The notes beneath the pieces are model-generated. The model had not been told where the DNA came from and made no database searches. It saw only the letters and a program-made list of their open reading frames with translations. Of a stretch of 51,624 nt of DNA, positions 35,274-40,801 are shown in pieces. The stretch is from a bacterium (GTDB lineage Bacteria > Verrucomicrobiota > Kiritimatiellia > CAIKKV01 > CAITUY01). Position 1 is the first letter of the stretch, and each line of letters starts with the position of its first letter. Made by a program: the position numbers and the translations under genes. The DNA is taken from assembly GCA_037143175.1 (NCBI GenBank), contig JBAWZF010000019.1, positions 1 through 51,624 on the forward strand, read 5' to 3'.

Positions 35274-37502
35274 ATGCCTACCGACCCCATTTGCGGAATG
35301 ACTGTTGATGAGGCGACGGTGCTTTCCTGTGTAAAGGAGGGCAAGACGTGGTATTTCTGCCATGAATCCTGTCGTCGGAAATTCCTGGGGCTTCCGCCCA
35401 TCACTTCTCCCGGCAAACCCCATACCGCCGCCTATTTCTGCCCCATGTGCGAAGGGGTCGAAAGCCCTGTTCCCGCGACCTGCCCGAAATGCGGTATGGC
35501 GCTCGAGAGCAGCGGACTCACCGCCGAAGAGGACACCTCTGAATTGGACGACATGACGCGTCGGCTCAAATGGGGTATCTGTTTTGGTCTTCCGCTCTTT
35601 ATCCTCTCCATGGGCCCCATGGTCTTTCCGGCCATGCATGCCTGGATTGCTCCGCATTTCTCCCGTTGGGTAGAAATGCTGCTGGCGATTCCGGTGGTGC
35701 TCTGGTGTGGCCTCCCATTTTTTCAACGCGCCTGGCTCTCGCTCCGCACCCTGAACCTTAATATGTTCACGCTGATCGGACTGGGCACCGGAACGGCCTT
35801 TTCTTACAGCATGCTCGCCATGCTGTTCCCGGGGATTTTCCCCGAGTCCTTCCATCACCATGGCGGCGTTCCCATTTATTTTGAGGCGGCCTCAACCATC
35901 ATCATTCTCGTCCTGCTAGGGCAGGTCATGGAGTTAAGCGCCCGCAGAAAAACCGGATCCGCCATCCGCGAACTGCTCAAACTTACCCCAACCACAGCCT
36001 GCGTGGTTAAGGACGGCGAAGAGCGGGAAATTCCCCTGAGCGACGTACACCCCGGTGACATCCTGCGCGTCCGCCCCGGCGGAAAAATACCGGTAGATGG
36101 CGAAATCCTTGAGGGCCATGGCTCCATCGATGCCTCCATGCTGACGGGCGAGGCCGAGGCCATTGAAGCAGATGCGGGCAGTCCTGTTGCGGCCGGCACC
36201 ATCAATCGCTCGGGTTCCTTCCTGATGCACGCCTCAAAAATCGGCGCGGAGACCCTCTTCGCCCGGATTGTTCAGAGGGTCTCTGAAGCCCAACGCAGCC
36301 GGGCTCCTGTCCAACATCTGGCCGATCGCGTGGCCGCCGTGTTTGTCCCCATTGTAGGCCTGGCCGCTTTACTCACCTTCGCCATCTGGGCCTGGTGTGG
36401 CCCCGAGCCACGAGTTATTTTCGCCATGGTCAATGCCGTCTCCGTCCTCATCATCGCCTGCCCCTGTGCACTGGGTTTGGCCACCCCCATGGCGGTAATG
36501 GTCGGCATCGGCCGCGGGGCCCGCGCCGGAATTCTCATACGCGACGCCACCGTTCTGGAGCAATTACAGCGGGTGGACACCGTAGTGGTGGACAAAACCG
36601 GAACCCTGACCGAAGGCAAACCCACCGTGGTGGCAATGTTCCCTGACGATCAGCCGTTGCTCCAACTCGCAGCTTCACTGGAACACCTCAGCGAACATCC
36701 CATAGGACAAGCCATAGTGCGCTATGCCCGCGCAAAGGGGCTGACACTGAAACCGGCCGAGGGCTTTGAATCAATCGCGGGGGGCGGGGTATCAGGACTG
36801 GTAGGAGGGCAACGCATTGTTGTGGAGAAGGCGGCACCAGGGGAACGGCCTGACAACGCAATAGCCCTTAAAGCAGGCCAGCATCAGACCTTGGTCATCA
36901 TCAGACTCAATGGACAACTGGCAGGTCATATTGCCCTTTCAGATCAAATCCGTACCACCACACCAGCCGCCATCAAGGCCCTCCACGAGATGGGCCTGAA
37001 AGTCATCATGCTTACTGGGGACAACCAGGAGGTAGCCGCCAGGGTAGCCCGCGAACTCGGGATCGATCAAGTCCTCGCGGCCGTCACACCCGAGGGAAAG
37101 CAGAATTTTATCCGGACGCTCAAAGCCAACGGCAACTGTGTCGCCATGGCAGGCGATGGCATCAACGATGCCCCTGCTCTCGCCCTGGCGGACGTGGGAA
37201 TCGCCATGGGAACCGGAACAGACGTTGCCATGGAAACCGCGGGAGTTGTTCTGGTAAAGGGAGATTTGCAGGGCATTGTCCGGGCTATCCGGCTCAGTCG
37301 CTCTGTCCTGAAAAACATCCGCCAGAACCTGTTTTGGGCTTTTGGTTATAATATGATCGGCGTACCCCTGGCCGCCGGCCTTCTCTATCCCTGGACCGGC
37401 TTGCTCATGAACCCCATGCTGGCAGCAATGGCCATGAGTTTCAGTTCAGTCTCAGTGATCGCTAACGCCTTGCGCCTGAATCGCAATAATTTAGATGCTT
37501 AA
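35274..37502 (+). CDS. Copper-type P1B ATPase with N-terminal YHS domain
   Basis: A 742-residue heavy-metal exporter. An N-terminal YHS domain (DPICGMTVD, then YFCHESCRRKFLG) is followed by a short Cys-rich heavy-metal-binding module (FCPMCEG, CPKCGMAL). Eight membrane helices surround the CPC transport motif in IIACPCALGLATP (around residue 395). Catalytic blocks are DKTGTLTEGKP (D near 438), SEHPIGQAI and MAGDGINDAPALA. The CPC motif fits Cu(I) or Ag(I) export. The usual HMBD motif histidine is replaced by cysteine (CPMCEG). Start ATG at 35274. Confidence 0.94.
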   Translation: MPTDPICGMTVDEATVLSCVKEGKTWYFCHESCRRKFLGLPPITSPGKPHTAAYFCPMCEGVESPVPATCPKCGMALESSGLTAEEDTSELDDMTRRLKWGICFGLPLFILSMGPMVFPAMHAWIAPHFSRWVEMLLAIPVVLWCGLPFFQRAWLSLRTLNLNMFTLIGLGTGTAFSYSMLAMLFPGIFPESFHHHGGVPIYFEAASTIIILVLLGQVMELSARRKTGSAIRELLKLTPTTACVVKDGEEREIPLSDVHPGDILRVRPGGKIPVDGEILEGHGSIDASMLTGEAEAIEADAGSPVAAGTINRSGSFLMHASKIGAETLFARIVQRVSEAQRSRAPVQHLADRVAAVFVPIVGLAALLTFAIWAWCGPEPRVIFAMVNAVSVLIIACPCALGLATPMAVMVGIGRGARAGILIRDATVLEQLQRVDTVVVDKTGTLTEGKPTVVAMFPDDQPLLQLAASLEHLSEHPIGQAIVRYARAKGLTLKPAEGFESIAGGGVSGLVGGQRIVVEKAAPGERPDNAIALKAGQHQTLVIIRLNGQLAGHIALSDQIRTTTPAAIKALHEMGLKVIMLTGDNQEVAARVARELGIDQVLAAVTPEGKQNFIRTLKANGNCVAMAGDGINDAPALALADVGIAMGTGTDVAMETAGVVLVKGDLQGIVRAIRLSRSVLKNIRQNLFWAFGYNMIGVPLAAGLLYPWTGLLMNPMLAAMAMSFSSVSVIANALRLNRNNLDA

Positions 37503-37626: not shown

Positions 37627-37685
37627 TTAGAAATATGGCATAATAATCGCTTATGACTCTCGGGTTAAGTAATCCAAGGAATATT

Positions 37686-39128
37686 ATGAACACAGAAAAG
37701 TCTTGTAAAAGCTCCCTACATGACACCCGTAAAGCAACCGCGACGGCGATTATTGTATTTGCCCTAACGGTTCTACCCCCTCGGAGGAGTCATGCGGAAG
37801 ATTCTCTGGGCGCCAAGTTCATGTATTATCAAGAGGATAACGATCGTATCAAAGTACTTGCTCCTGAGATTTCGGCGCAGAATGAAACGGATACAGGCTG
37901 GATAATCAAGCTTGATGGTATTTATAATGCTATTAGTGGCGCCACCCCCACCGGGGCCCCACCTGCTGCTGTCGCTCCGGTCAGTATCAATCGGCCCGCC
38001 GCCTCTTCTGGTGGAGGAACGACTAGCAGCACACCGCCGATAACCGTAACTCCCGTGAATAATGGCGGCGCGGAGCAGGAACATGAAGATGACGCCTTTA
38101 TCGGCCGACGCGTCAATTACCCGGCTGCCCGTTATTCAGCGGTGACCGCGGCCACCCCGGCTCCAGCACCAACCCCGGCCCCAACTCCCTCAACGCCGTC
38201 ATCGGCGCCTTCCGCGCCTACCAGCAGCCCCGCTGCCAGCAGCGGATCAGCAGCAGCCTCAACAACTCAACCTGCCGCCCAACCAGCCAACTCCTCGCGT
38301 ATTCCTCTGGCAGATTTCAGCGATACAAGATGGGCATTCAACATCGGCCTATCTAAACGTATGGGCAATCATACACCCAGCATTCAAGCCTCCTACAGTC
38401 AGGAGTCCGATTATCTCTCAACAGGACTCAGTCTTCAGGATACCTTGGATTTCAATAAGAAGAACACCACCCTTGCCTTTGGCGGCGCCTATACCCATGA
38501 CGCGCTGACTCCGGCCAACGGGCGCCCGAGCGAAACCAAGGATTCCATTGATGCCCTGCTCGGAATCTCGCAGGTGCTTACGAAAACAACCGTGTTCACC
38601 GCGAACCTCACCCTTGGCCAGGTTTCCGGATTTATCAGTGACCCCTATAAACTGGCAGAAGTAAACGGTCGACTCATTTATGAAAATCGGCCCGACAGCA
38701 AAACCAAGGAGATTATCTATGTCGGCTTGCAACAGTTCATCACCCCGCTTGATGCCAGCATCGATCTTGGATTCCGGTACTATACTGATTCATTTGGGAT
38801 CAATGCGGAAACGCTCTCACTGGCCTGGTTCCAAAAAATCAACCCGCACTTCATTATCAGCCCCATCATAAGGTACTACACCCAGACGGCGGCAGACTTC
38901 TATGATGTCCGCTTCAGCGGTGCCCCCGAATTCTATAGTTCAGACTACCGGATTTCGGATCTGACCTCGATTTCCTATGGGGTCAAATTCATCTGGATGC
39001 CCACAAGTAAGCTCACCCTGGATGCCGGTGTGGAGCGCTATGAAATGTCTGGAAATGATGGAAAAACAGATGAAGAAATGTATCCCACAGCCCTCCTGTT
39101 TATGGTGGGCGCCCATGTCTCTTTTTAA
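37686..39128 (+). CDS. DUF3570 outer-membrane protein with SGAT flavinylation-type motif
   Basis: A 480-residue protein. A signal peptide ends SHAED. The mature part opens with beta strands (GAKFMYYQEDNDRIKVLAPE), has a Pro/Ala/Ser-rich linker (around 155-225), and closes with a beta-barrel ending LLFMVGAHVSF. The DUF3570 assignment rests on the overall pattern and on the neighbours. Residues 81-90 read NAISGATPTG, with S84-G85-A86-T87 matching the consensus that ApbE flavinylates on threonine in NqrC and RnfG. The usual Asp three residues earlier is Asn here. ATG at 37686 has AGGA upstream. First gene of a four-gene operon. Confidence 0.85.
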   Translation: MNTEKSCKSSLHDTRKATATAIIVFALTVLPPRRSHAEDSLGAKFMYYQEDNDRIKVLAPEISAQNETDTGWIIKLDGIYNAISGATPTGAPPAAVAPVSINRPAASSGGGTTSSTPPITVTPVNNGGAEQEHEDDAFIGRRVNYPAARYSAVTAATPAPAPTPAPTPSTPSSAPSAPTSSPAASSGSAAASTTQPAAQPANSSRIPLADFSDTRWAFNIGLSKRMGNHTPSIQASYSQESDYLSTGLSLQDTLDFNKKNTTLAFGGAYTHDALTPANGRPSETKDSIDALLGISQVLTKTTVFTANLTLGQVSGFISDPYKLAEVNGRLIYENRPDSKTKEIIYVGLQQFITPLDASIDLGFRYYTDSFGINAETLSLAWFQKINPHFIISPIIRYYTQTAADFYDVRFSGAPEFYSSDYRISDLTSISYGVKFIWMPTSKLTLDAGVERYEMSGNDGKTDEEMYPTALLFMVGAHVSF

Positions 39129-39142
39129 GGCGGTTAATTTTT

Positions 39143-40078
39143 ATGGCGGCAAGCGACTATACCAAGCACACGTTTAATGCGATGGGGACTGTCTGTGAGC
39201 TTCAGTTCCAAACTGATTCAACGGCAGCAAGCAATGCGTTCATTAAAAGCGTTACCAGCTGGGTTTCCAGTTTTGAAGCTAAATTCTCACGCTTCCGGCC
39301 CGACAGCCTGATCTCCCGTATCAATGCCGCCGCAGGGGACAGTCCCGTGGAGCTTGATGATGAAGCTGAAAGTCTTTTGGCGCTCTGTGACTGGTTCCAC
39401 TGGTCAACCGGCGGAGTGTTCGACCCGGCGGCCCTGCCCCTGATCAAACTCTGGGATTACCACATCCCCCACGCCACGCGCCCGGAAGAGTGCGCCGTGC
39501 AATCGGCCCTTGTCCTCTGTGGCTGGAAGAAAATTCAACGCCGGAAGGGACAGTTCTTTCTTCCAGAAAAAGGAATGGGGATTGACGTAGGCGGAATCGG
39601 CAAGGAATATGCCGTGGATCGGGTATTTGAAATGGCCAATCAGGCGGGCCTCCAGAATGTCTTGGTAAATTTCGGTCACGATTTACGAGTTCAGGGCGAG
39701 CCCCCTGAGAAGGGACCGTGGCGCATTGGACTGGAAGATCCCAATGACCCCGGACGGTGCTGGGGCGGTGTGGTGGTTCGCAACCGGGCCGTAACAACCT
39801 CAGGAAACTACGCGCGTAACGTAAAAATAAATGGCGAGCAGTTTGGGCACATTCTTGATCCCCGCACCGGCTACCCGGTGAGTAATGGGTGCCAATCGGT
39901 CAGTGTCATTGCGCCCACCTGCACCGAGGCGGGCATTTTGTCCACCACCGCCTTCATCCTCGGTGGGGAGGAGGGGCAACGCTTTCTCGACAGTTACTAC
40001 CAAGTCGAGGGTTGTGTGAATGAAAAGAACAGGCAGTATCTAACCAGGAGATTCCATGAATACCTCATCCGTGATTAA
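39143..40078 (+). CDS. apbE: ApbE-type FAD:protein FMN transferase
   Basis: A 311-residue ApbE. Family blocks are FNAMGTVCELQF, the FSRFRPDSLISRIN region, GMGIDVGGIGKEYAVDRV, NFGHDLRVQG and the HILDPRTGYPVSNG metal/FAD motif. It transfers FMN from FAD to a Ser/Thr in an SGAT-type motif; the neighbouring DUF3570 protein carries one. Most ApbE proteins are exported lipoproteins. Here no signal peptide follows the only plausible start, although the upstream untranslated frame is hydrophobic. It lies 14 bases after DUF3570 and overlaps the next gene by 23 bases. Confidence 0.93.
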   Translation: MAASDYTKHTFNAMGTVCELQFQTDSTAASNAFIKSVTSWVSSFEAKFSRFRPDSLISRINAAAGDSPVELDDEAESLLALCDWFHWSTGGVFDPAALPLIKLWDYHIPHATRPEECAVQSALVLCGWKKIQRRKGQFFLPEKGMGIDVGGIGKEYAVDRVFEMANQAGLQNVLVNFGHDLRVQGEPPEKGPWRIGLEDPNDPGRCWGGVVVRNRAVTTSGNYARNVKINGEQFGHILDPRTGYPVSNGCQSVSVIAPTCTEAGILSTTAFILGGEEGQRFLDSYYQVEGCVNEKNRQYLTRRFHEYLIRD

Positions 40079-40583
40079 TAAAATAACCATACTGGCGGCT
40101 ATCGCATTACTGGCCGCAACAGGTACTACGCAGGCTGGCTGGAAAACAGGCTCCCCGTTACCGGATTTGAATCAGTTCAAATTGGAGGGAAAAGTCCCTT
40201 CAGACCTAAAAGGAAAAGTGATCCTGATCGACTTCTGGGCCTCCTGGTGCGGCCCTTGCAAGGCATCATTCCCCATCCTGAATAACCTGCAAGATCAATA
40301 TAAGACCCGGGGATTTGAAATCATTGCCGTGAATCAGGATCAGACACGTGCGCTCATGAAATCATTTCTTGAAGAACACCCTGCCTCCTTCATCGCCCTG
40401 CGTGATGCAGACAACCTGTTGGTAGCGGCAGCAGATGTACAATCCATGCCCTCCTCCTTCCTGGTCGATCGCTCAGGCAGAATCCGGTTTCTGCATACGG
40501 GTTTCCATGGCGAAAAAACAGCCGCCAAATACAAAGAAGAGATTGAACTATTGCTGAATGAAAAGGATGGGCTGAAAAAATGA
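40056..40583 (+). CDS. TlpA/ResA-type thioredoxin-like protein
   Basis: A 175-residue exported thioredoxin-fold protein. A signal peptide (ITILAAIALLAATGTTQA) is followed by LIDFWASWCGPCKASFP with the active-site C65 and C68, a SMPSSFLVDRSGRI cis-proline loop and a helical end. It should reduce or isomerise disulphides in the periplasm, perhaps the Cys-x-Cys tail of the DUF4266 protein next door. AGGAG precedes the ATG. It overlaps both neighbours. Confidence 0.93.
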   Translation: MNTSSVINKITILAAIALLAATGTTQAGWKTGSPLPDLNQFKLEGKVPSDLKGKVILIDFWASWCGPCKASFPILNNLQDQYKTRGFEIIAVNQDQTRALMKSFLEEHPASFIALRDADNLLVAAADVQSMPSSFLVDRSGRIRFLHTGFHGEKTAAKYKEEIELLLNEKDGLKK

Positions 40584-40801
40584 AACACCGCCTGCTCAAA
40601 CTAGGATTGATATCTATCGGTCTCATTTCGCTTACCGGCTGCGGAACGGTTCAACCCTGGGAGCGGGGAACCCTCTCCGACTATACCATGCGCCAGGATC
40701 GTGATCCCCTGACCGACTCCATGCGGGAACACGTTTACTTTACACGCGAATCCGCCGCCGGTGGACGCGGAGTGGGTGGCGGCGGTTGCGGCTGTAACTA
40801 G
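40580..40801 (+). CDS. DUF4266 lipoprotein with C-terminal CGCN
   Basis: A 73-residue lipoprotein. The lipobox LISLTGC places the lipidated cysteine at residue 21. The short mature part contains WERGTLSDYTMRQDRDPL and ends GGRGVGGGGCGCN, with cysteines at 70 and 72. The TM[RQ]xDRDPL segment and Gly-rich CGCN tail are the DUF4266 hallmarks and strongly conserved in this family. The tail looks like a metal or cofactor ligand, or a modified site. Its ATG overlaps the TlpA stop (ATGA). The function is unknown. Confidence 0.9.
   Translation: MKHRLLKLGLISIGLISLTGCGTVQPWERGTLSDYTMRQDRDPLTDSMREHVYFTRESAAGGRGVGGGGCGCN

Follow-up and report, generated by a model that had tools for sequence, protein, structure and literature searches.

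A four-gene module that probably serves protein flavinylation lies complete in the window (by which we mean the whole stretch of 51,624 nucleotides analysed), and our overall reading, which we regard as likely, is that the ApbE-family enzyme encoded within it puts FMN on Thr87 of the outer-membrane barrel protein encoded by the adjacent gene. The barrel is a DUF3570 protein of 480 aa (37686–39128, forward strand; PF12094, E = 1.3e-72, 245 bits against a cut-off of 25; AlphaFold2 barrel model). Its open reading frame, which encodes ...GIYNAISGATPTGAPP..., spans 37653–39128 on the forward strand in its longest form, where an in-frame ATG at 37653, 33 bases before the ATG at 37686, gives 491 aa. 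It is followed on the same strand by genes for an ApbE homologue and putative transferase (39143–40078; PF02424, E = 2e-72, covering profile positions 1–263 of 266), a secreted TlpA/ResA-like thioredoxin with a CGPC active site (40056–40583; Redoxin and Thioredoxin Pfam matches, signal peptide by inspection) and a small DUF4266 lipoprotein with an LTGC lipobox and a CGCN end (40580–40801; PF14086, E = 1.6e-21). The four genes are tightly packed, with overlaps or, between the DUF3570 stop codon and the apbE start, a spacing of 14 bases.

That a DUF3570 barrel can be flavinylated is already known in principle from Méheust et al. 2021, who reported DUF3570 to be an ApbE substrate (PMC8238504); no other paper naming DUF3570 was found in the literature searched. 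In that study a Chlorobium luteolum DUF3570 protein was flavinylated when co-expressed with its own ApbE, labelling being abolished only when both of its [S/T]GA[S/T] motifs were mutated, and clusters of ApbE, DUF3570, thioredoxin-like and DUF4266 genes were often found with DsbD, while 316 had no linked DsbD (PMC8238504). An earlier note on this DNA, made from the letters alone, had remarked that a covalently flavinylated outer-membrane barrel would be unusual, which was a fair comment although such a barrel had already been described; its underlying proposal, an ApbE-type flavinylation site in an outer-membrane barrel, is supported here and demonstrated for another DUF3570 protein. The window system shares with that of Méheust et al. 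the protein family, the type of motif ([S/T]GA[S/T]) and the four-gene cluster, but differs from the C. luteolum pair in both partners. In the C. luteolum experiment serines were mutated at two sites and the ApbE was called signal-peptide-truncated (PMC8238504), whereas the window barrel has one strong Thr site and one degenerate site, Asn in place of Asp, and a long acidic, Pro-rich loop, and the window ApbE has neither a signal peptide nor the metal-binding Asp; the C. luteolum pair is possibly of another subtype. What is new is the Asn-type barrel with two motifs and, more than that, the signal-less ApbE dedicated to it, in which a carboxylate is swapped. No description of such a Gly264/Glu155 signal-less variant was found in the literature searched (subscription journals lay outside the search).

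The module is kept as a unit across loci. A tblastn comparison of eleven window genes with ~116 loci (a number that includes some duplicate records of one genome) found DUF3570 in 114, ApbE in 101, the thioredoxin in 94 and DUF4266 in 100, and each of the flanking genes in only 1–4. The source genome encodes one DUF3570 protein and one ApbE, and searches of it for FMN_bind and DUF2271 matches returned none. Thus no other known ApbE substrate was found in the genome, which makes flavinylation of Thr87 likely; with the motif evidence given below we rate FMN on this residue as very probable, and we infer that the neighbouring ApbE is the enzyme that modifies it. No match to the DUF3570 protein was found among viral contigs, and a plasmid search returned only two distant Hymenobacter proteins, which served as outgroup. 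Directly upstream of the DUF3570 gene lies a gene for a heavy-metal P-type ATPase with YHS and HMBD domains (35274–37502), which occurs near DUF3570 in only 4 of the ~116 loci. An NADPH-dependent FMN reductase-like gene (PF03358; 33966–34535), ~3 kb upstream of the module, is shared with one same-genus locus only and therefore lies outside the conserved block.

The primary motif, NAISGATPTG (37926–37955), includes SGAT at 37935–37946, with the codon of the acceptor Thr87 at 37944–37946. The earlier note had placed SGAT at codons 84–87 in this same context, with the ApbE gene 14 bases downstream; all of this is correct, counting codons from the ATG at 37686 (they are 95–98 from the longer start). 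It had also held that lack of conservation among homologues would speak against the site. On the contrary, the motif [DN]xI[STAV]G[AS][TS]P-x-G was kept in 104 of 108 distinct DUF3570 homologues, which come largely from one phylum (mostly Verrucomicrobiota in the GTDB sense, with one plasmid protein). The four others, which alone do not have Gly-[Ala/Ser]-[Thr/Ser]-Pro-x-Gly at this position, form a distinct subtype. The named loci were gathered partly by searching for an SGAT-type motif, while separate family searches were motif-independent. Among the 104 motif-bearing proteins the first position is Asp in 86 and Asn in 18; Ile follows after one residue in 99 (Val in 5), then Ser, Ala, Thr or Val (62, 22, 17 and 3), Gly in all 104, Ala in 101 (Ser in 3), Thr in 90 or Ser in 14 at the acceptor position, which is thus Thr/Ser in 104/104, Pro in all 104, a variable residue (Thr, Asn, Ser or Ile) and Gly in all 104. 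When this Ala/Ser/Thr-rich protein was shuffled, SGAT appeared in 3.9% of shuffles and [DN]xx[ST]GA[ST] in 1.5%, such that the latter pattern alone would be weak evidence of a site, while the full [DN]xx[ST]GA[ST]PxG appeared in 0 of 20,000; it is the conservation in 104/108 homologues that marks the motif as more than chance.

The window protein departs from the D-x-x-[S/T]-G-A-[S/T] consensus in having Asn, not Asp, at the first position. The earlier note was right that this substitution is present, but it is not peculiar to the window protein, being found in 18 of 104 relatives. The possibility that Asn marks a decayed site was rejected, as in all 18 relatives that have it the rest of the motif is perfect, and from the alignment we take Asn to be a trait of a clade and not a defect. 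Replacing the Asp with Ala in the motif of a model flavoprotein had only minor effects (PMC12052999), and Asn should therefore be tolerated; changing Gly to Ala or Ala to Val left about half of the flavinylation (PMC12052999).

The AlphaFold2 model (57 sequences) is a confident barrel of ~16 strands, with a mean pLDDT of 81 and values of at least 90 over 298 residues. The protein has the features of an outer-membrane barrel, namely a signal peptide, an even-stranded up-and-down barrel and a C-terminal Phe. The signal peptide is predicted at 37686–37796 (forward strand; MNTEK...AIIVFALTVLPPRRSHA, cleavage before EDSLG) from a hydrophobic stretch after RK, its cleavage site having been picked by inspection, and 90 of 108 relatives also have a hydrophobic N-terminus. 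In the model the SGAT motif (mature residues 47–50) forms the last part of strand 3, with pLDDT about 83–90. Connections after even-numbered strands are short (~2–7 residues), while several of the odd-numbered strands are followed by long ones. Barrels of this kind have both termini in the periplasm; with strand 1 near the N-terminus and these loop lengths, the end of strand 3 and the loop that follows should lie outside, and the model accordingly puts the motif at the predicted extracellular end of strand 3, inside and outside being assigned from strand count and loop lengths. Structural searches retrieved porins and further barrels, with Z scores of up to 22. As a source of functional clues these Foldseek and VIA-align matches were set aside, comprising generic barrels only (BamA, CymA, OmpG, FadL and TonB-dependent receptors), and a sequence search for a DUF3570 relative with a solved structure found none.

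The motif is followed by a Pro/Ala/Ser-rich loop of 122 aa (37956–38321), which the model leaves mostly disordered (pLDDT <50 for mature residues 72–164) and which contains an acidic patch, EQEHEDD (38073–38093, forward strand). This loop measures 97–163 aa in Asn-type proteins versus typically 13–18 aa in their Asp-type relatives, and Asn for Asp was found only together with a very long loop, in all 18 Asn-type proteins. Asn-type loops consist of 45–77% Pro, Ala, Ser, Thr and Gly, usually include an acidic patch and are otherwise hardly conserved apart from a segment 59–92 residues after the first acceptor, which is absent from the earlier note. This segment reads, for example, FNSLSGATP, FNAISGATS, FSAVTGATP or WAKAGATP in relatives and YSAVTAATP in the window protein (38133–38159, forward strand), where the candidate acceptor is Thr157 (codon 38154–38156). 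The pattern [WYF]x(2-4)[STA][GA]AT[PSQ] occurs in 18/18 Asn-type loops against 0.11 expected after shuffling each loop, a contrast that is inflated, though not materially, by the pattern having been written after the loops were seen. In some relatives the copy repeats the primary motif almost perfectly; four have an exact SGAT or TGAT here, while the window protein has a single exact [S/T]GA[S/T] motif and, in the loop, the degenerate copy TAAT. The simplest reading of these alignments makes the second motif another acceptor site, which would be strong in some relatives but probably weak in the window protein. Use of Thr157 for flavinylation is possible but a little on the doubtful side; a two-site loop would turn the barrel into a small multi-flavin electron carrier.

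The partner enzyme is unusual in both its N-terminus and its active site. The window ApbE begins MAASDYTKHTFNAMGT, with no export signal or lipobox. Signal peptides were judged by a simple hydropathy test, not a dedicated predictor, and by this test a hydrophobic N-terminus is missing in ~87 of 90 ApbEs at SGAT-type DUF3570 loci, the three exceptions being weak. Such an N-terminus is present in ApbEs next to the other DUF3570 subtype (including Hymenobacter), and 85 of ~110 ApbEs at loci without DUF3570 have both the metal-binding Asp and a signal. The signal-less N-terminus of the window enzyme makes attachment in the cytoplasm the most likely course, one that we favour with moderate confidence. 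A cytosolic ApbE of Klebsiella pneumoniae likewise has no signal peptide, but its substrate is a soluble cytoplasmic fumarate reductase (PMC12052999), whereas the window substrate has a signal peptide and is a predicted outer-membrane barrel.

The window protein resembles the ApbE/Ftp/FmnB transferases (PF02424) in its full-length profile match, in having relatives with solved structures and in its catalytic Ser220 and His236 (Ser241 and His257 in V. cholerae), each kept in 99/99 members of its clade. Besides the missing export signal, it differs from them in two active-site substitutions and in belonging to a separate clade tied to SGAT-type DUF3570. Gly264 (39932–39934) replaces the metal-binding Asp (Asp285 in V. 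cholerae, Asp280 in E. coli, Asp301 in Listeria) at a position that lies 28 residues past the catalytic His, the same spacing as in V. cholerae, and alignment to the solved Ftp of T. pallidum agrees; Glu155 (39605–39607) replaces the Gly of AKG directly after the active-site Lys. Among the alignable ApbEs, 99 are Gly-type and 99 Asp-type at position 264, and position 155 is Glu in every Gly-type protein versus Gly in every Asp-type one. In solved ApbEs the Asp binds the metal and the FAD phosphates, and in E. coli ApbE the backbone of the residue four before the position equivalent to Glu155 binds the metal. Alanine in place of Mg ligands of Listeria FmnB (Asp301 and others) greatly reduced or abolished activity (PMC8906456), and an enzyme with Gly264 could therefore lack activity if Glu155 does not make up for the loss. 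The two swaps, occurring as a pair, suggest that the carboxylate has changed sides at the metal, with the invariant Glu probably taking the place of the lost Asp. If the enzymes of this clade are active, the ApbE active site is more adaptable than crystal structures suggest.

The Gly-type ApbEs form one clade (FastTree support 0.999), and the Gly264 type was found in none of 87 ApbEs from outside SGAT-type DUF3570 clusters in a phylum-wide sample, 84 of which have Asp. All the Gly-type ApbEs encountered come from genomes that also encode an SGAT-type DUF3570 protein, and the checked genomes in which such a protein has no adjacent ApbE all encode a Gly-type ApbE elsewhere or across a contig break. 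What the SGAT motif follows is thus the presence of a particular ApbE clade, rather than adjacency as such. The earlier question of whether SGAT is conserved only beside ApbE must be answered in the negative in its simple form, as the motif is also kept without adjacency, but the link to ApbE survives in that the same type of enzyme is encoded elsewhere in the genome. One genome already having a Gly-type ApbE has a second at locus L169 (G304:C51:58624-59418), ~7 kb from its DUF3570 gene.

SGATPTG might instead be a conserved structural turn of the barrel that is never flavinylated, with ApbE serving another substrate. The segment does lie where strand 3 ends, a place at which the demands of folding can conserve turn residues, and the Pro-x-Gly after the motif is also invariant although the ApbE consensus does not require it. 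We nevertheless consider this explanation improbable: the conserved residues match the ApbE recognition motif with Thr or Ser always at the acceptor position, no other known ApbE substrate turned up in the genome, flavinylation at motifs of this kind has been demonstrated by experiment for a DUF3570 protein (PMC8238504), and a second motif recurs in an otherwise unconserved, disordered loop, where no folding reason for it is apparent.

The other explanations accept a link between barrel and enzyme and concern what ApbE does, or where. The Asp, a ligand of Mg and of the FAD phosphates in solved ApbEs, has been lost, which would suit a neighbouring ApbE that is no longer an FMN transferase and acts for the barrel as a chaperone-like pseudoenzyme or an FAD-cleaving enzyme. 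This too seems improbable, if marginally less so, given that no member of the clade departs from the Ser and His of the triad, that the equally invariant Glu, four residues past the E. coli metal-binding backbone residue, gives the pattern of a relocated ligand, and that the substrate motif is retained wherever a Gly-type ApbE occurs. Flavinylation in the periplasm, by an ApbE exported without a recognisable signal or with a misjudged start codon, has a better claim, but we still think it unlikely. Where an ApbE is known to modify secreted targets, it is exported too (PMC12052999), and some predicted ApbE starts in relatives are uncertain. Against this, no ATG, GTG or TTG was found in the window between the upstream in-frame stop and 39143, and the near-universal absence of a hydrophobic N-terminus from the partner ApbEs stands against the signals seen in ApbEs beside the other DUF3570 subtype and in most beside no DUF3570.

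Flavinylation of the barrel by its ApbE, most likely in the cytoplasm, is our preferred reading. In the mechanism that we propose, the adjacent ApbE would link FMN by a phosphoester bond to Thr87 of N-A-I-S-G-A-T in the cytoplasm, on the unfolded chain and before Sec export. The precursor would then be exported and assembled, which would bring the flavin to the barrel's outer face, at the extracellular end of strand 3; a surface-facing flavin is what the modelled topology favours, though not strongly. The flexible long loop could swing a second flavin, on Thr157. Unlinked DsbD would reduce the TlpA-like thioredoxin and the CxC lipoprotein DUF4266 from the inner membrane, these would pass electrons on in the periplasm, exchanging them with the barrel, and the barrel, once assembled, would take up or give off electrons at the cell surface. 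DsbD-type transporters are indeed encoded in the source genome, unlinked to the module, and the direction of electron flow can be suggested only tentatively. If the ApbEs of this clade are active, covalent FMN would be joined to an outer-membrane protein before export, a sequence of steps unlike the usual one for exported flavinylated proteins.

An analogy, with no claim of homology, may be drawn with the Mtr porin-cytochrome conduits, in which a barrel is likewise tied to electron transfer across the outer membrane; the Mtr complex barrel was among the generic barrel matches to the window model. The window module differs from these in having no haem protein, and its cofactor would be covalent FMN on the barrel itself. 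Taken jointly, a cytoplasmic ApbE with a relocated carboxylate, flavinylation before export, two FMNs (one on the acidic loop) and a haem-free surface wire or reductase, acting for example towards metal ions, make up a speculative picture that is unlikely to hold in every part.

Some further variation was seen among the relatives. In the second DUF3570 subtype (L054:5722-6972, L055:6904-8067, L076:6694-7911 and L158:5611-6897) DYVSSAS or DYYSSAS replaces DAISGAT, an extra SGAS is present in three of the four, and the ApbEs linked to it have signal peptides and retain the Asp wherever that position can be read. Some Verrucomicrobiota have two SGAT-type DUF3570 genes, from a few to ~13 kb apart (L098, L102, L059/L060 and L072/L073), and at L098 and L102 no ApbE lies within the stretch examined. 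At L045:7079-8487 (also L090), in a two-contig Kiritimatiellae genome, the DUF3570 gene is split into three reading frames and adjoins an apparently intact ApbE gene; this broken gene is either a decaying copy or a sequencing error.
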